This document shows, piece by piece, positions 3,196-26,630 of a DNA stretch of 32,673 nt (the first letter of the stretch is position 1; the number at the start of each line of letters is the position of its first letter). A program made the position numbers and the translations under genes. The DNA is taken from IMG/VR virus record IMGVR_UViG_3300042507_000685, positions 1 through 32,673 of that record. One strand, given 5' to 3'. Source of the DNA: a virus. The notes beneath the pieces are model-generated. The model searched no databases. It had not been told where the DNA came from and saw nothing but the letters and a program-made list of their open reading frames with translations.

Positions 3196-5312
3196 GCAAG
3201 TCAACGCAGCACTTCACCCAATGGCTTGGGATAGAGCATAAGGTCCCCGTGATGCTGGAGAACAGGTCCGGCAAATACATCACCTACGGCTTTGCCAACG
3301 AATACCCCTACTACCTGCTGGACAATTATCGCAGGAGCAGCAAGCACAACGCTATCGTGAATGGGAAAGTGAACTACATCATGGGCGGTGGATGGCAGGC
3401 AGGGGATGACTTGACCGTGGAGCAAGAGGCCCGGTTCATCAAGTTTTTTGACGGAATGTCCAGCACCGAGGACCTAAACGATATCACGGAGAAACTGGTC
3501 CTTGACTTGGAACTATTCAACGGCTTTGCGGTTGCGGTTACTTGGTCCAAGTTGGGAACGATTGCCAAGATGGAGCATATCCCGTTCGAGAAGATTCGGG
3601 TTGACAAAGAGGAGAAGATGTTTCAGGTGGCGGACTGGTACAACGACGACATGATGCAGTTGTTCCCAAAGGTCGGGGACATCGAGAAAATCCCTGCATT
3701 CGACCCGGAGAATCGCCTCGGAAAGCAGTTGTTTTACTATCGTGTCTACGCAGCAGGCGTGAAGCACTATCCTCTCCCGGAATACATCGGGGGGAACGCT
3801 TGGATTGAGGCAGACGTGCAGGTGGCGAACTTCCACAACAACAACCTCCGCAACAACTTTTGGGGCGGTTACTTGATTAATTTCAACAACGGCATCCCGA
3901 CCCCCGAAGAACAGGGCGACATCGAGCGTCAAATCAAGCGTAAGTTTTCGGGAACGGACAACGCTGGTCGCTTCGTTGTAACCTTCAACGATGAAGCAGC
4001 GAATGCCCCGACACTTGAACCGCTCACTCCGTCCGATATGGATAAACAGTTCGAGGTATTAAACAAATCAATCCAGCAAGAGATATTTATCGCCCACCGT
4101 GTAACCAACCCCATGCTTTTCGGGGTGAAGACCGAAGGCCAATTGGGTGGACGCAACGAATTGGTCGAGGCCTACGAACTATTCAAAGCCACCTACGTCA
4201 ACGACCGGGTCCGCAAAGTGGAGCGGATGATTAACTACCTCGGCTCGTTCAACGGAGTCGAAGGGATGGAACTTATCCCTGTAGAACCCATTACCGAGCG
4301 ACTAAGCGAACAAGCCCTGTTGCAGATAATGACCCAAGACGAACTGCGTGAGAAAGCAGGTCTGCAACCCTTGGAGAAACCTGCCGACGTTGTGGGACCT
4401 AACCCCCAACCCGATGAGCAACCGCAAGCCGTGGAAGCCTTGCAGAGCAACGACAACATCAAGAAATTATCGGGCCGTGAGTATCAAAACCTGATGCGAA
4501 TCGTCAGGCAGTATATGCAGGACAAAATCACCTTGGAGATGGCTCGGACGATGCTATCAGCCGGCTTCGGCTTGTCAGCCCAAGAGATTGACACGATGCT
4601 GGGCGTTCAGTCCCAAGAGTTCAGCGAACCGACTTGGGGCCAAGAAGACGACGAAGATTACGGATGGGGCGAGGAAGAATTTAAGGTCTTGGAAGTGGTT
4701 GCAAGCAAGTTCGGATGCCATGCAGACGACTACCATGTCATGCACTCCAAGCCAATGCGTTTTGACACCAACATCGACGAAAACATCCGCTTGGCCTTTG
4801 CCGAACTGGGCGAGGAAGAGATTGAACTTGACAAGAAGATTGAAGCCTACCGCAAAAAGAACCGGGATGCAAGCGTTGAAGAAATGGCAAAGGAGTTCGG
4901 AGTCAGCAAAGCCAAGGTCGCCAAGCGTGTCGCCTACCTAATCACCAAGGACCGCTATCCTATCAGCCGGGCGGTGGACAAGATTGCCGAGCAGAACCTT
5001 CCCAAGAACGTCAAGGAAGTTGCCGAGCCGGTCTTGGAAGTCCGCTACAAGTACGCATGGGCCACGGGTTTCAGCAACAAGGACAAGCGGTCAAGCCGTG
5101 AGTTCTGCAAGGTCATGTTGGACTTGGCCGGGCAGGGCAAGGTTTACACCCGTGAGGACATCGACGGGATTTCTGCGATAATGGGCTACTCCGTTTGGAA
5201 TCGCAGAGGCGGTTGGTATCACACGCCCAGCGGAGTGAACAGGCCCCAATGTCGCCATGTATGGGAGCAGCAGTTGGTAATCCGTAAAGGCAATAAAATC
5301 AGCAAGGCATGA
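3192..5312 (+). CDS. Portal protein with extended minor-head-like C-terminus
   Basis: The protein has 706 residues, well above the 400-500 typical for portals. Residues 1 to about 400 match the portal pattern: an N-terminal strand-rich region, HIPFEKIRVDKE, a long helical crown region, and MLFGVKTEGQLGGRNELVEA, the segment near the tunnel loop in PBSX-like portals. After an acidic linker (about 470-500) comes a small helix-turn-helix-like segment (EEMAKEFGVSKAKVAKRV, about 560-580). The end reads GGWYHTPSGVNRPQCRHVWE, which resembles the Cys/His C-terminus of Mu gpF/SPP1 gp7 minor head proteins. The portal forms the dodecameric DNA gate in the capsid. A portal fused to a minor-head tail is inferred. 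Portal and terminase genes are about 16 kb apart, unlike the common adjacent order. Confidence 0.85.
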   Translation: MSKSTQHFTQWLGIEHKVPVMLENRSGKYITYGFANEYPYYLLDNYRRSSKHNAIVNGKVNYIMGGGWQAGDDLTVEQEARFIKFFDGMSSTEDLNDITEKLVLDLELFNGFAVAVTWSKLGTIAKMEHIPFEKIRVDKEEKMFQVADWYNDDMMQLFPKVGDIEKIPAFDPENRLGKQLFYYRVYAAGVKHYPLPEYIGGNAWIEADVQVANFHNNNLRNNFWGGYLINFNNGIPTPEEQGDIERQIKRKFSGTDNAGRFVVTFNDEAANAPTLEPLTPSDMDKQFEVLNKSIQQEIFIAHRVTNPMLFGVKTEGQLGGRNELVEAYELFKATYVNDRVRKVERMINYLGSFNGVEGMELIPVEPITERLSEQALLQIMTQDELREKAGLQPLEKPADVVGPNPQPDEQPQAVEALQSNDNIKKLSGREYQNLMRIVRQYMQDKITLEMARTMLSAGFGLSAQEIDTMLGVQSQEFSEPTWGQEDDEDYGWGEEEFKVLEVVASKFGCHADDYHVMHSKPMRFDTNIDENIRLAFAELGEEEIELDKKIEAYRKKNRDASVEEMAKEFGVSKAKVAKRVAYLITKDRYPISRAVDKIAEQNLPKNVKEVAEPVLEVRYKYAWATGFSNKDKRSSREFCKVMLDLAGQGKVYTREDIDGISAIMGYSVWNRRGGWYHTPSGVNRPQCRHVWEQQLVIRKGNKISKA

Positions 5313-5890
5313 AGGCACTATTCATAAGCGAAGAAACGCTGCTCGACAACTCAATCATAAACGAGAACGTATCCTACACCCAGATACGTCCTACGGTTGT
5401 CAAGGTCCAAGAGATGCGGATTCAGCCCATCGTTGGCTCTGCGTTGTACGGGGAACTCGTTACGCAGGTGGTCAGCGGTTCAACGTCTGCACTCAACCAA
5501 ACGCTGCTGGAGGATTACATCCAGCCGGCTATGATTCAATGGCTTTACTACGAGTTGCCGATGGTCCTTGCGTTCAAATACATGAACAAGGGGATGGTTC
5601 GCAGAACGAGCGAAGAATCAAGCCAAATGAGCATGGAAGAAATCACCCGGCTGACCGATAAAGTGAAGAACGATGCCGAGTGGTATTCCGAACGCATTAC
5701 CCGCTACCTGATGGAGAACCGCAATTCCTATCCGCTCTGGAACTCGCCTCCTTCTGCTTTGGATACCATCTACCCGAACGCTACGAACTACCGAACCGGG
5801 ATGGTCTTGGACCGCAACAGGAGGATGGGAATCAGCAACTTGGACTACCCCTACCCTTACGGACAATTTGGGGCTTGTAATGACTGCTAA
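5309..5890 (+). CDS. Head-tail connector protein, DUF6712-like
   Basis: This 193-residue, mostly helical protein starts inside the portal stop codon (ATGA overlap). The N-terminal half (SYTQIRPTVVKVQEMRIQPI, then IQPAMIQWLYYELPMVLAFK) resembles the DUF6712 connector proteins common in Bacteroidota phages. These occupy the place of gp6/gp15-type adaptors that sit under the portal. The C-terminal part ends in a Tyr/Pro-rich stretch and CNDC. The position directly after the portal strongly supports a neck adaptor role. Confidence 0.65.
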   Translation: MKALFISEETLLDNSIINENVSYTQIRPTVVKVQEMRIQPIVGSALYGELVTQVVSGSTSALNQTLLEDYIQPAMIQWLYYELPMVLAFKYMNKGMVRRTSEESSQMSMEEITRLTDKVKNDAEWYSERITRYLMENRNSYPLWNSPPSALDTIYPNATNYRTGMVLDRNRRMGISNLDYPYPYGQFGACNDC

Positions 5891-8876: not shown

Positions 8877-9148
8877 ACCTAATCGAAACCACCATCGTCG
8901 GGAGCGTTGCAGCAATCGTCGGTGGAGCGGTCGCTTGGTTTACCAAGGGCCGTGTCGAATCGGACTCCCTGCAAGTCAGGCAAGCCCAAGCGGTCCTCGC
9001 TATGTGGCAGGCTACCAGCGAGTCACAAAACAAGGAATTAACACAACTTCGTAATGAGGTCGTAAGTTTGCGTCAGCGGTTAGAGGAAATGGAACACACC
9101 ATCCACTCCCTCCAAGCCGAGAATGCCAAACTTAAAAACCTCGTATGA
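8873..9148 (+). CDS. Membrane-anchored coiled-coil protein, spanin- or Rz-like candidate
   Basis: The start is GTG at 8873, overlapping the holin-like stop codon. The 91-residue product has one N-terminal membrane segment (about 5-22, TIVGSVAAIVGGAVAWF) and then a long heptad-patterned coil (about 35-90, LTQLRNEVVSLRQRLEEMEH). This is the layout of an inner-membrane spanin (Rz) subunit. No outer-membrane lipoprotein partner is seen nested or adjacent; the only lipoprotein candidate, at 15629, is far away. It could instead be a holin regulator. Confidence 0.5.
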   Translation: MNLIETTIVGSVAAIVGGAVAWFTKGRVESDSLQVRQAQAVLAMWQATSESQNKELTQLRNEVVSLRQRLEEMEHTIHSLQAENAKLKNLV

Positions 9149-13209: not shown

Positions 13210-13301
13210 GCTTGAATTCCGGCCAAGCAGGTGTTAGATAAAAGGGTTCCTCCACTTAACCCTGCCCTCAACTGCCGGAATCAGTTGGGGGCTTTTTTTT
13301 T
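13210..13301 (+). promoter_or_regulatory. Structured leader with intrinsic terminator: possible transcription attenuator
   Basis: Three successive hairpins can form, each with a 9-nt loop. Hairpin 1 pairs 13210-13214 with 13224-13228. Hairpin 2 pairs 13243-13248 with 13258-13263. Hairpin 3 pairs 13264-13273 with 13283-13292 (ten pairs, one G-U) and is followed by nine T at 13293-13301, an intrinsic terminator. Eight bases of loop 1 (13216-13223, ATTCCGGC) are complementary to eight bases of loop 3 (13274-13281). The loops could therefore kiss, or the arms could pair at long range and disrupt the terminator. An alternative pairing 13227-13231 with 13261-13265 would also break hairpin 3. The terminator ends three bases before the initiator ATG. 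Confidence 0.65.
13264..13301 (+). terminator. Intrinsic terminator 3 nt upstream of the initiator start codon
   Basis: A 10-bp stem (GCCCTCAACT with AGTTGGGGGC) with a 9-nt loop is followed by T9. It could simply end the upstream early operon. However, no promoter fits between it and the ATG at 13305, so downstream expression must pass through it or arise elsewhere. Confidence 0.75.
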
Positions 13302-13304
13302 ACC

Positions 13305-14045
13305 ATGGAAAATAGTTGGTACAAACACTCCCCAAGCGATTGGCTCGCAGGTCGAATCAGTCGCAAATCCTTTGAAGTCCAAGGGGCCTTCATCCACATT
13401 TGTCAACTCTACTGGGTCAAGCACGGGCAGTTTACCGCCCATCAAGCAAGCCTTGAGATAGGCAAAGACCTCCTTGAAAAACTGATTGAGTCCGAAATAA
13501 TCAAGACCGAAGGCGAAGAAATCCGCATCGACTTCCTTGATTTGCAGATGGAGGACCTGAACAGATTAAGCGAAAGAAGGAGGGAGGCAGGTCGTAAAGG
13601 AGGCGAAGTAAAGGTCCAAGCAAGTGTTAAGCAAACGGAAGCAAGTGCTAAGCAAACCGAAGCAAGTGCTAAGCAAAACCAAGCAAGTGCTAAGCAAACG
13701 GAAGCAGATAAGATAAGATTAGATAAGATAAGAGAAGAAGAGATAACAAACAAAGAAGAGATAAAGAACACTTGTGCAATCTTTGACCAATTCTGGGCTA
13801 TCTATCCACGCAAGACCGGGAAGCAGGCAGCGTCAAAGTCCTTTGCAAAGTTGTCCAATTCCGACCAACAGGAAGCCATCAACAACATCTCAAGGCTCTA
13901 CTCTCAAACCCCCGTGCAGTTTGTCCCTCATGCCGCCACCTACCTCAACGGCAAACGCTGGGAGGACCAAGCCATCCAACGAACACCTAACTTCGCCCAC
14001 TCAAACCTAACCTCCGATGATAAACAACTACCAATCTTCCGCTGA
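13305..14045 (+). CDS. Replication initiator / helicase loader, lambda O-like
   Basis: The 246-residue protein begins with a winged-helix-like DNA-binding region (about 1-90: SPSDWLAGRISRKSFEVQGA, a helix-rich middle, IIKTEGEEIRIDF). A charged linker then carries four 7-residue repeats of the EASAKQT type and a Lys/Arg/Glu-rich stretch (about 105-155). The C-terminal domain (about 155-215: FDQFWAIYPRKTGKQAASKS, FVPHAATYLNGKRWED) matches the C-terminal module of phage O/DnaD-like loaders that contact the helicase. It would melt the origin and load the DnaB-type helicase, whose gene overlaps it by 29 bases. The repeat-encoding DNA is probably the origin itself. No Shine-Dalgarno sequence is present; the start follows the terminator run. 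Confidence 0.75.
   Translation: MENSWYKHSPSDWLAGRISRKSFEVQGAFIHICQLYWVKHGQFTAHQASLEIGKDLLEKLIESEIIKTEGEEIRIDFLDLQMEDLNRLSERRREAGRKGGEVKVQASVKQTEASAKQTEASAKQNQASAKQTEADKIRLDKIREEEITNKEEIKNTCAIFDQFWAIYPRKTGKQAASKSFAKLSNSDQQEAINNISRLYSQTPVQFVPHAATYLNGKRWEDQAIQRTPNFAHSNLTSDDKQLPIFR
13620..13766 (+). repeat. Iteron-like repeats plus AT-rich tract: candidate replication origin
   Basis: Four 21-bp direct repeats run without gaps at 13620-13640, 13641-13661, 13662-13682 and 13683-13703 (core GCAAGTGCTAAGCAAA). A purine-rich, AT-rich tract of GATAAGATAAGA-type units follows to about 13766. Tandem initiator sites beside an easily melted tract, inside the initiator gene, is the layout of the lambda origin within gene O. 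The repeats also encode a clean 7-residue peptide repeat, so a purely protein-level role is the alternative. Confidence 0.6.
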
Positions 14046-23715: not shown

Positions 23716-24450
23716 ATGAAACTACTCGCAAACATCGCCTACCACCACAACCCCGAAAGGATACCAAACCTCATCCGGGTAATCGAGGCTATCAAGTCCT
23801 ACCCGGTGCAGGCGGACATATTCGTGGACACCAACGACCCCGAAGTCGTGGGGCTGCTTGCGGACCAACCCGTAACGGTTCACGCTCACACGCAACTCTC
23901 GCACCCTTGGATGCTGACTGCAGTACACCGCACACGAATCAAGGAAACCTACAAGTACTTTGACTGGGTGGCCTACTTTGAGGACGACATGATGCTGCCC
24001 AAGGAAGGCTTTGTCAACTTCACGGAACGGTTCGATTCGATGTTTGCCGATGGCTTGTACCCATCCTTCACCCGCATTGAAACCTACGACGACAAGGAAG
24101 GCGAATGCACTCCTGACGTGAACGAGGTTCTGCCCAGTTCGGTGTGGTGTCAGTACAACGGCAAGGACTATGTGAGCCTGCCGTTCTTCATCAACTACCA
24201 CGCTTTTTGGATGTTCAGCACCAAGAGGCTCAAGGAGGTGTTGACCCGTAATCCGGGCGAACTTGACCATATCCCGAACAATGGCCTTTACAGGGAGAGC
24301 CTTGCCTCCTTCCCGATTTGGTCATTGAATCTAAAACCGATGCTGGAATTTACGGAGCAGGGCGAACTTGCGGACCATTGCAAGGTCTTTCACTTGACCA
24401 ACAACTACAAGCACGGAAGCACCAACATTAAAACCCTCTTCAAGCGATGA
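23716..24450 (+). CDS. Glycosyltransferase, GT-A type
   Basis: The ATG at 23716 is preferred over TTG 23710. The product has 244 residues with ANIAYHHNPERIPNLIRVIE at the start, DIFVDTNDPEV, then the metal-binding acidic motif YFEDDMMLPKEGF (about 91-103). FINYHAFWMFSTKRLKEVL and a His-rich end KVFHLTNNYKHGS follow. This is a GT-A layout. The methyltransferase gene overlaps its stop codon, so the pair may build and cap a glycan. Confidence 0.7.
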   Translation: MKLLANIAYHHNPERIPNLIRVIEAIKSYPVQADIFVDTNDPEVVGLLADQPVTVHAHTQLSHPWMLTAVHRTRIKETYKYFDWVAYFEDDMMLPKEGFVNFTERFDSMFADGLYPSFTRIETYDDKEGECTPDVNEVLPSSVWCQYNGKDYVSLPFFINYHAFWMFSTKRLKEVLTRNPGELDHIPNNGLYRESLASFPIWSLNLKPMLEFTEQGELADHCKVFHLTNNYKHGSTNIKTLFKR

Positions 24451-24980
24451 AACAACTCGACGCTCTACGCAACACCCCACGGATGTACTTCCTGCCCATC
24501 GACTACCATTCGGGCAACAACCGGGTAGACGGCCTCATTGACCTTTGCCAAAAGTACCTCAAGCCCACGGACAAGTGCGTGGAGGTCGGTTCCTTTTCGG
24601 GGGTGAGCAGTCAGGTCATTGCTCTGCATTGCGGAGAACTGCATTGCGTTGATACTTGGGACTTCGGTGGCACGATGCCAGCCGAGCAGATGTTCGACCT
24701 GATGCACCTAAACTACCCCAACATCGCTAAGGTCAAGATGACCAGCATCGAAGCATCCAAGCAATATGCCGATGGCTCCCTTGATTTTGTGTACGTTGAC
24801 GCTGACCATTCCTACGCCTCGGTCGTTGCAGACATCAACGCTTGGAAACCCAAGGTCAAGCAGGGCGGTTACATTGCAGGACACGACTCGTATATGCCCG
24901 AAGTCTTGAAGGCGGTTATGGACTGCCTCGGTGAACCCTTGCAATACTTCACCGACACCTCTTGGATTGTCAAGTTATGA
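24447..24980 (+). CDS. Class I SAM-dependent methyltransferase, small-molecule or glycan type
   Basis: The 177-residue protein has the SAM-binding loop CVEVGSFSGVSS (about 46-57), acidic HCVDTWDF, and FVYVDADHSYASVVADI typical of the Methyltransf_24 family. There is no Pro-Cys motif of cytosine-C5 enzymes and no N-P-P-Y of amino-methyltransferases, so it is probably not the missing DNA methyltransferase. It probably methylates a sugar added by the preceding glycosyltransferases. Confidence 0.8.
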   Translation: MKQLDALRNTPRMYFLPIDYHSGNNRVDGLIDLCQKYLKPTDKCVEVGSFSGVSSQVIALHCGELHCVDTWDFGGTMPAEQMFDLMHLNYPNIAKVKMTSIEASKQYADGSLDFVYVDADHSYASVVADINAWKPKVKQGGYIAGHDSYMPEVLKAVMDCLGEPLQYFTDTSWIVKL

Positions 24981-25546
24981 AACTCCAAGACCTCACCATC
25001 GACCAGTTCCAACGCATCGGGGCCATTGAGTTCAGCAGCGTGCTGGGAGATTACGACAAGCGTGCAGGAGTCGTCGCAATCGTTGAGGGGGTGGATATAT
25101 CACTTGTCCGAGAAATGTCCGCCAAGAGCGTCCTAAAACGTTACAAGGCCATTATCAGCGAGTGGAACGCATTGCCTGCATTGGGGTACAAGCGAAAGTT
25201 CAAAGCCGGGGGCAAGTGGTGGATACCAACGGTCTTCACGGATGAACTCACGGCCGGGCAGTTGATTGAATTAATGGACGCAAACACGACGGACGAGAAG
25301 CAACTCCTGCAGAACCTCCACCGAATCATGGCAACCTTGTGCAGGGAAGGCGGTCTATTCGGATTCTTCCCGAAAAAGTACGACGGGGCTGCCCATGCAG
25401 AACGGGCCGAACTGATGAAGAAACACGCCAAGGTGGGCGACGTTTGGGGGGTTGTCAGTTTTTTTTTGCTAAGTTCCGAACCCTACTTGAAAGTTTTGAG
25501 CGACTATTCCAAGCACCTGATGACGAAGGCCGAGGGGCTGACGTAA
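24977..25546 (+). CDS. Tail assembly chaperone, short form (gpG-like)
   Basis: From the ATG at 24977, which overlaps the methyltransferase stop codon, the product has 189 residues. It is helical with ISLVREMSAKSVLKRYKAII, DELTAGQLIELMDANTTDEK and a charged C-terminus. It would chaperone the tape-measure protein during tail assembly. A T9 tract at 25459-25467 lies in its last third, and an overlapping frame continues to 25722. Two nested products from one start, as in lambda G/GT, are the expected reading. Confidence 0.65.
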   Translation: MKLQDLTIDQFQRIGAIEFSSVLGDYDKRAGVVAIVEGVDISLVREMSAKSVLKRYKAIISEWNALPALGYKRKFKAGGKWWIPTVFTDELTAGQLIELMDANTTDEKQLLQNLHRIMATLCREGGLFGFFPKKYDGAAHAERAELMKKHAKVGDVWGVVSFFLLSSEPYLKVLSDYSKHLMTKAEGLT

Positions 25547-25722
25547 GCCCTTTGGCCGGCTACGGTTGGCTCATGGTCGTTTGGAGGATGGCTAACAAGG
25601 ACGTTCTCAAATTCGATGCCATCTTCGCAATGAAGGCGGTGGAGTTCCTGAACTATGCGCTCTTGATTCACGATATTTTGGAAGCGGAGAGGATGGAGGC
25701 GGAGCGGGCAAGAAGAAAGTAG
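24977..25722 (+). CDS. Tail assembly chaperone, -1 frameshift fusion (gpGT-like)
   Basis: A -1 shift on the T9 tract joins about 164 residues of the short form to 84 residues of the overlapping frame. That frame reads AKFRTLLESFERLFQAPDDE, then WRMANKDVLKFDAIFAMKAV, then ILEAERMEAERARRK. The frame lacks a convincing start of its own, and its helical, acidic/basic end fits a T domain. The fusion would be about 248 residues. The tape-measure gene lies downstream at 30179. Frameshifting is inferred, not shown. Confidence 0.6.
25459..25468 (+). promoter_or_regulatory. Slippery sequence for -1 ribosomal frameshifting
   Basis: Nine T followed by G. In the zero frame the codons are AGT TTT TTT TTG, so T-TTT-TTT (25459-25465) and T-TTT-TTG (25462-25468) both fit the X-XXY-YYZ rule. 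After slipping one base back, GCT AAG TTC continues the long downstream frame. No strong downstream hairpin was identified by eye. Confidence 0.65.
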
Positions 25723-25734: not shown

Positions 25735-25824
25735 AGTCAGGTGGTGGAATTGGTTAGACCGTCCCCTCCCTTAAGTGTAAGGGGGAGACCGAAAGGTATA
25801 CAGGTTCGAATCCTGTCCTGACTA
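25735..25824 (+). tRNA. Class II tRNA-like gene with abnormal anticodon arm (possibly Leu, UAA)
   Basis: The acceptor arms AGTCAGG (25735-25741) and CCTGACT (25817-25823) pair fully, with discriminator A25824 and no encoded CCA. The T arm ACAGG-TTCGAAT-CCTGT is standard, and the variable arm ACC-GAAA-GGT makes it class II. The D region GGTGGAATTGGTTAGACC is Leu-like. The anticodon region (about 25761-25785) does not make a 5-bp stem with a 7-nt loop. The best stems leave about a 12-nt loop that contains TTAAG. The isotype is therefore uncertain and the gene may be defective. Confidence 0.6.
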
Positions 25825-25879
25825 CGAGGTGGGTTGGAGGTGACTTCCCGCAAAGCCTAAGTATGGAACCTTCATTTAT

Positions 25880-25952
25880 AGTCAGGTGGCGCAACGGTTA
25901 GCGCAAGATGCTTATACCATCGAGGTTACAGGTTCGATTCCTGTCTTGACTA
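25880..25952 (+). tRNA. tRNA-Ile, anticodon UAU
   Basis: The 73-nt cloverleaf is as follows. Acceptor AGTCAGG pairs with CTTGACT (one G-U). D stem GCGC/GCGC. Anticodon arm GATG-CTTATAC-CATC with U33, anticodon TAT (reads AUA) and A37. Variable loop AGGTT. T arm ACAGG-TTCGATT-CCTGT. Discriminator A, no CCA encoded. AUA is rare in G+C-balanced genomes, so the phage may supplement it. Acceptor and T arms nearly match the preceding tRNA. Confidence 0.85.
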
Positions 25953-25970
25953 CACATTCCAGCACGGGGG

Positions 25971-25982: not shown

Positions 25983-26630
25983 ATGGAAACAACCATCCTC
26001 GCCAATGGCAAGCCCGTAGGCAAGTTCGGCAGCGGTTCGATGAAGGGCATCGACGAAACCGCTTTGGAGGGGATTGGTTCAGTCGTCGGCCCCAAAGGTG
26101 GAGGCAAGTCTCCAACCCACGATGTGCTGGTCAAGTGGATTGAACGGGTCATTGAACTTGCGAAGAAGAACCTCGAAGCAGCCAACGCAAATGCAGGGGG
26201 AACGCTATCGGCATCCATCGCACCCGAAGACATCGAACTATCCGCAAAGCAAATCGTGGTGGCTATCATGGCGAACCCCTATTGGAAGTACGTGGACCAA
26301 GGGGTGCGAGGCAAGTCCTCAAGCGCAAAGGCTCCGAGGTCGCCATTCCAATACAAGGACAAAATTCCACCACCCCAAGCCATTGCCGACTGGATTGCAA
26401 ATAAGGGCATTCCTGTCGTTCCGACTTATTCACGCAAACTCAAGCGAATGCGGACAAAGCAGGAGCAAGGATTGGTCGATGGCAGGTCTATTGCCTTTGG
26501 CATTCGTGAGCGAGGCACAAGGGCCACGAACTTCATGTCTAACGCCCTATCCCCCGAAATGATAGACGTTTTGGTGAACACAATCGCTGAAACCCTTGGC
26601 AAATCCATAAGCGTAGCAACCAAACTATAA
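25983..26630 (+). CDS. Tail completion / HK97 gp10-like protein
   Basis: The 215-residue protein has a helix VKWIERVIELAKKNLEAANA, then PYWKYVDQGVRGKSSSAKAP and FQYKDKIPPPQAIADWIANK. It ends with a segment SIAFGIRERGTRATNFMSNA. The YxxYVDxGVRG...G(T)xAT/FMxxA pattern is that of HK97-gp10-type neck or tail completion proteins. It would help join the tail to the head. It follows the tRNA genes directly. Confidence 0.65.
   Translation: METTILANGKPVGKFGSGSMKGIDETALEGIGSVVGPKGGGKSPTHDVLVKWIERVIELAKKNLEAANANAGGTLSASIAPEDIELSAKQIVVAIMANPYWKYVDQGVRGKSSSAKAPRSPFQYKDKIPPPQAIADWIANKGIPVVPTYSRKLKRMRTKQEQGLVDGRSIAFGIRERGTRATNFMSNALSPEMIDVLVNTIAETLGKSISVATKL

Follow-up and report, generated by a model that had tools for sequence, protein, structure and literature searches.

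The locus considered here raises the question of how two overlapping reading frames are joined at a run of nine T, whether by the ribosome or by RNA polymerase, and what the joined product may do for the phage. The window is the whole stretch of viral DNA that was analysed, 32,673 nucleotides long (positions 1 to 32,673 of IMG/VR record IMGVR_UViG_3300042507_000685). Frameshifting in G/GT genes is a textbook case of ribosomal recoding; in this class G binds the tape measure protein and T binds the tail tube, neither protein is present in the virion, and a balanced ratio is needed. An initial annotation of the window read the tract as a programmed ribosomal -1 frameshift site in a gene of this kind, and remarked in passing that polymerase slippage might also be permitted. 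The features to which the argument refers are listed below.

24977..25546, + strand: G open reading frame, putative short form of a tail assembly chaperone (189 aa, 21.2 kDa)
25457..25468, + strand: slip site AGTTTTTTTTTG, the longest invariant run of the close-relative alignment
25468..25722, + strand: -1-frame T extension of 84 aa and a stop codon (dN/dS ~0.01 in frame -1; T-domain alignment of 79 representatives)
25469..25546, + strand: overlap coding in both frames (G tail and T extension), with constraint on both
25983..26630, + strand: next gene of the tail module, phrog_29822 (function not assigned), with the same PHROG in the same place in the divergent family L318
30179..32032, + strand: candidate tape measure protein, 617 aa (phrog_1506 'tail length tape measure', E 6e-4; phrog_21917, E 1e-8)

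Nine T occupy positions 25459-25467 and are followed by G25468. In the frame of the ATG at 24977 the site reads AGT TTT TTT TTG and contains two heptamers in frame, U_UUU_UUU (25459-25465) and U_UUU_UUG (25462-25468). Past the slip site the 0 frame continues as a tail of 26 codons to the TAA at 25544-25546. The -1 frame is already open upstream of the tract, reads ...SFF/F AKFRTLLE... across the junction and closes with the TAG at 25720-25722; both the tract and the 84-residue extension had been described correctly in the initial annotation. The T extension carries the T-domain motif GYGW...DVLKFD...EFLN, and a GT fusion through T9 is computed to have 248 aa and 28.2 kDa. The peptide VGDVWGVVSFFLLSSEPYLK is predicted for the G product and the junction peptide VGDVWGVVSFFFAK for GT made via U10 or via a slip at U_UUU_UUU, while VGDVWGVVSFFLAK is predicted only from a ribosomal slip at U_UUU_UUG. 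The T9 alone is unremarkable, with two found in the window against 1.9 expected. As chance alone would give about two T9 runs in a stretch of this length, the case depends on conservation. The second T9 of the window (13293-13301) is intergenic and lies just ahead of an ORF that starts at 13305.

An IMG/VR protein search returned 423 encoded relatives, part of which were fetched. The T9 is kept in all 246 intact relatives fetched, whose G identity is 78-100%, and the 12 bases of AGTTTTTTTTTG are the longest invariant stretch in the 746-nt gene alignment of 149 unique sequences. Both Phe codons at the slip site are TTT in 149/149, whereas TTC predominates at the remaining conserved Phe positions of G. 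Codon-position variability in the close relatives follows frame 0 up to the tract and frame -1 beyond it. Based on counts of synonymous and non-synonymous differences among the 149 unique relatives, dN/dS was ~0.04 for G in frame 0 and ~0.01 for the T-only part in frame -1, with values above 3 in wrong or control frames; in the overlap it was ~0.31 for the 0 frame and ~0.38 for the -1 frame. Since purifying selection acts in both frames, it appears that both make protein and that selection also preserves the 26 codons of the G tail. The 0-frame stop is found 82-88 nt past the tract in 236 of 238 relatives. The conservation of the T run, which had been suggested as a check on the initial reading, was thus seen throughout, and relatives without both the run and the second frame were looked for but not encountered. 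That the frame transition at T9 is real and functional seems almost certain.

Two relatives deserve mention on their own account. L271, the sole deviant of the window lineage, has T7 with several indels around it, at a site ~240 bases past a GGKWWIP match at 8892; it comes from an early metagenome dataset, and its deviation is probably a sequencing error. In the close relative L088 (G gene from ~4703) a deletion after the tract puts the T domain in the G frame and the -1 frame closes early, which may be a natural fusion or a chimeric assembly.

Explanations that do without a shift during gene expression account poorly for these observations. The T part could be made with no frameshift, from an internal start such as the ATG at 25573 whose use is translationally coupled to termination of G; nearly all close relatives do have an ATG at +114 from the tract, and the T ORF starts close to the G stop. 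However, the -1 frame is constrained from the tract on, including the overlap and the nine codons that separate the 0-frame stop from the first ATG of the -1 frame (25573), for which dN/dS is ~0.03, and the conservation of T9 would be left unexplained. Because -1-frame stops lie directly at the tract in 7 of 238 relatives and the pre-ATG codons are constrained, a separate T gene is very unlikely, and the earlier remark that the extension has no sensible start codon of its own holds. Similarly improbable is a contingency locus, at which DNA replication slippage to T8 or T10 would toggle G and GT in the population. Homopolymers of about nine can be phase variable, but neither a T8 nor a T10 allele occurs in the 246 intact close relatives; the lone deviant is the indel-ridden L271 (T7), and the lone T8 sits at a contig end. 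As homopolymers are error prone in sequencing, the tract might also be a sequencing or assembly error in what is truly one continuous G-T ORF. This can be given almost no credence, since T9 recurs in hundreds of metagenome assemblies made independently of one another, and the part of the 0 frame past the site is constrained, with its stop at 82-88 nt in 236/238.

The genes around the site bear on the function of the product. G/GT genes are marked by a short ORF to which a conserved extension in a second frame is linked through a slip site close to the end of that ORF, and this arrangement is present here. Tape-measure PHROGs are found in the equivalent downstream gene of five other families (L318, L340, L299, L412 and L428), and in divergent families the order is recurrent: G-T, a protein of ~160-230 aa, one of ~330-430 aa, one of ~620-930 aa and a tape-measure-like protein, with one extra gene within that order in some of them. 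The recurrent gene order and the two-product architecture support a role in tail assembly as a chaperone. The initial annotation had placed the gene upstream of the tape-measure gene; it does belong to the tail module, but the two genes do not adjoin, as two tRNAs and three genes intervene. These tRNA genes, tRNA-Leu(TAA) at 25735-25825 and tRNA-Ile(TAT) at 25880-25953, follow the T extension and precede the next tail gene, and none of nine relatives scanned has any tRNA gene; the UUG codon at the slip site is one that tRNA-Leu(UAA) could decode. A Methyltransf_24 methyltransferase gene (24447-24980) is located just 5' of G, after the terminase and ahead of the tail module, and a DUF6712 protein (5309-5890, E 1.8e-21) is encoded immediately past the portal gene.

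Neither profile nor fold searches matched G or T to a known tail chaperone. In Pfam and NCBIfam there was no match for G/T, and in PHROGs there were only weak ones of unassigned function. AlphaFold models were of low confidence (pLDDT 54 for G and 66 for T), too poor for fold assignment, and BFVD gave few weak full-length matches (best E 1.4e-3), all of them unnamed proteins of uncultured phages. The terminase of the window is closest to those of Flavobacterium and Bacteroides phages, and therefore a Bacteroidota host is likely.

Judged from its sequence relationships, the G/T protein is a member of a large, mostly uncultured phage superfamily, across which the median pairwise identity of G is 28%. 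The superfamily was sampled without selection for T runs, using search patterns that exclude the tract. The motif LTAGQ[FY]ID, ~70 codons 5' of the tract, gave at least 75 loci, most of which are matched by the HMM of the window family. In 11 representative families so matched (E 1e-18 to 1e-5), exactly nine T occur at the FF motif and the T domain (W-G-W ... E-F-L-N) is in the -1 frame in 11/11. Among the matches listed, each of the 62 motif loci with a T run of at least seven at the site is T9; their codon phases are divided 41, 15 and 6, and their -1 extensions are of 86-110 codons. Five further loci of this set end before the site, and in L322 the site is T6C. Two independent scans with T-domain motifs gave, among the matches listed, T9 in 12/12 loci and in 94/101 loci, the latter scan also including five T7, one T8 and one T6C; in this second scan T is in the -1 frame relative to G in all 99 loci with G located. 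Altogether, 309 of the 318 superfamily sites located are T9 among the matches listed.

When the pooled loci were clustered at 50% identity, at least 44 families were obtained: among the matches listed, 38 have T9 only (18, 16 and 4 by codon phase), one is mixed T9/T7, two are T7, two are T6C and one is T8. In a tree built from 80 representatives, at least 8 phase changes fall among the T9 rows, and at least 6 changes separate T9 from not-T9. The T9 loci span 29% to 63% GC and the tract is kept even at 63%. All of the T6, T7 and T8 exceptions keep a U_UUU_UUY heptamer in frame. The T6C that replaces T9 (U_UUU_UUC) is seen in two divergent families, L322 and L372/L380, and the -1-frame extension of L322 is without the WGW motif. 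No G homologs were found by tblastn in INPHARED or by a search of the genome_contigs collection, and the superfamily was not detected by HMM in eight cultured Bacteroidota phages, most of which were picked for a window-like terminase.

The length of the tract, more than its position relative to the codons, appears to be what is conserved. At every site T_TTT_TTY is in frame at the FF motif, and the extra T's of T9 are placed around this heptamer as 0+2, 1+1 or 2+0. Extra T's to its left plus those to its right total two in 39 of 45 cases, with no case above two. With the right sides shuffled, a sum of two was reached in 16.6 cases on average and in 30 at most over 20,000 shuffles, none of which attained the observed 39 (0/20,000), in a test that ignores kinship. 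Since the phase changes repeatedly on the tree, the left/right pairing is not one inherited state. The residues round FF differ completely between phases: FF stands between L/V/I and C/Y/S/W in phase 1, between G/A/S/T/D/N/C and L or F in phase 2, and between F and any residue in phase 0; in T6/T7 lineages the residue after FF is V, M, Q, T or L. The protein sequence has thus followed the tract, its flanking residues changing to fit nine T.

A homopolymer of about nine T at the frame transition, conserved by length and independent of phase, has the features of the slippage class. Conservation confined to the heptamer, a feature of the ribosomal class, does not apply, as two further T's are held in compensating positions. 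Therefore, the exact nine and the free phase fit polymerase slippage better, and ribosomal frameshifting that depends on the heptamer only predicts neither. Other T9 runs near these genes number only 2 in 582 kb of coding sequence, and in the T-run census of the surrounding genes the counts were too small for T9 avoidance to be demonstrable. Fast closure of the third frame was considered as a sign of polymerase slippage and discarded, being equally present in non-T9 lineages.

In vivo, the slippage-prone homopolymer is nine A or T, and the hybrid within RNA polymerase is 9-10 bp (PMC1088944, PMC5009743). T7 RNA polymerase slips on tracts that are far shorter (PMC6149199). We hold with moderate confidence that the window carries a G/GT-type chaperone gene whose long form results from a slip at a tract of exactly nine T, the slipping enzyme most likely being the RNA polymerase of the host. 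In the scheme that we infer, with RNA polymerase as the slipping enzyme, a mixture of transcripts, a chaperone function and a role for the ratio of products, the RNA:DNA hybrid of 9-10 bp would consist entirely of rU:dA on T9, which would allow the RNA to realign, and a slip of the polymerase would leave a minor share of the mRNAs with U10. From the U9 mRNA, G (189 aa) would be made by ordinary translation, while on the U10 mRNA the -1 frame would be entered and GT (248 aa) made, the U10:U9 ratio fixing the G:GT ratio. The tasks would be divided as in lambda: G, like the G portion of GT, would cover the tape measure protein, and recruitment of the tail tube subunit would fall to the T domain. 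In the minority lineages with T7, T8 or T6C, ribosomal -1 slippage probably takes place at the remaining U_UUU_UUY heptamer, since the heptamer is kept and the run is short for usual slippage. A broader proposal, that across the superfamily the G:GT ratio is set by the host polymerase at a hybrid-length T9 and not by the ribosome, with phases that slid and a few lineages that fell back on U_UUU_UUY, seems somewhat likely.

The main alternative is that of the initial annotation, in which lambda-like ribosomal -1 frameshifting occurs at U_UUU_UUU or U_UUU_UUG and the extra T's enhance the slip somehow. We consider it possible but doubtful. An in-frame heptamer is present in every T9 (necessarily) and in all T6, T7 and T8 exceptions, and most G/GT genes of long-tailed phages use ribosomal frameshifting (PMC5009743). 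However, tandem tRNA slippage needs no two extra T's in 0+2, 1+1 or 2+0, and U_UUU_UUU is weak in E. coli compared with A_AAA_AAG (PMC5009743). Stimulators do not help the ribosomal case either, as neither 3' structure nor a consistent SD-like element was found. In T9 lineages no excess of 3' RNA structure was detected (mean z about +0.2, n=72) and an SD-like motif occurs in 12.5%, and at most offsets tried the region just 3' of the window tract ranks within the 5-12% of the late region that have the least structure. In the small sample of non-T9 lineages the mean z is about -0.9 (one window size) and an SD-like motif is seen in 3/8, so that a difference in stimulators between T9 and non-T9 lineages is only suggestive. 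Individual candidates were also rejected: a strong hairpin of the window, ~60 nt downstream, is beyond the usual spacing for a stem-loop or pseudoknot and relatives fold weakly there; the upstream G run, as an SD element, is broken by synonymous changes in relatives. A reading of T9 as a terminator tail was rejected as well, as no + strand stem precedes the tract.

The direction of the shift suits the ribosome. It is -1 in every case with both frames located, as programmed ribosomal frameshifting predicts; Antonov et al. (2013) took an invariant frame direction as a sign of ribosomal frameshifting (PMC3711429), and the variation in direction that their heuristic associates with slippage is not seen here. 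A bias of the polymerase towards addition of one U would give the same invariant -1 direction, and a mixed polymerase/ribosome mechanism is possible. Since the frame direction is always -1, T9 is described as working like programmed transcriptional slippage and not as a proven member of that class. Overall, the frame transition at T9 and the G/GT architecture of the initial annotation stand; the ribosome is possible as the slipping machine, though not the best fit to the exact nine, the sliding phase and the lack of stimulators. Its aside on polymerase slippage looks like the better reading, nine T being the published threshold (PMC1088944, PMC5009743).

G/GT frameshifting and slippage at nine A or T are each already known. 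In the literature searched, in which subscription journals were thinly covered, we found no previous description of a tail chaperone with T9 or with polymerase slippage, nor of a T9 kept in length and free in phase across ~40 tail chaperone families; a slippage site of this kind was not encountered there in any other phage tail gene either. If polymerase slippage holds for most phages of the superfamily, one regulatory need would be met by two different machines, and the switches between T9 and T7 or T6C in one gene family would be natural pairs for studying the replacement of a mechanism. L419 and L394, for example, are matched T9 and T7 members of one family. A total homopolymer length that is kept while the phase is free may then serve as a signature, readable from sequence only, of polymerase slippage versus ribosomal frameshifting. 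In these phages standard gene calling would separate G from T or miss the fusion.

Among known systems, G/GT of lambda (also of HK97-type and other long-tailed phages) shares with the window a short ORF with a -1 extension, a tail-module position ahead of the tape measure gene, and a slip near the end of the short ORF, with the long form presumably a minority product here. It differs in its GGGAAAG-type site, where the window has T9, and in that the length and not the codon phase is conserved here; there is no detectable sequence or profile similarity, and three genes lie before the tape measure gene in the window. Escherichia phage 9g also has a U-rich slip site in its tail chaperone gene, CCCUUUUUUU, with a reported -2 frameshift that was proposed to be ribosomal (PMC4276943); unlike the present site it is C3U7, leads to the -2 frame and belongs to an E. 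coli phage. Transcriptional slippage at nine or more A or T (Thermus dnaX, IS transposases, Shigella mxiE/spa, Citrobacter tssM) resembles the window in the homopolymer of nine, in that RNA stimulators are not needed and in that one gene gives two protein forms; the coding-strand T run, the phage tail gene and the invariant direction set the present case apart. A further parallel is dnaX, for which ribosomal frameshifting is used in E. coli and polymerase slippage in Thermus. Whereas the alternation here is read from sequence and falls within one phage gene superfamily, in both cases homologous genes appear to use either mechanism, with T9 in most lineages here and a U_UUU_UUY heptamer in a minority.
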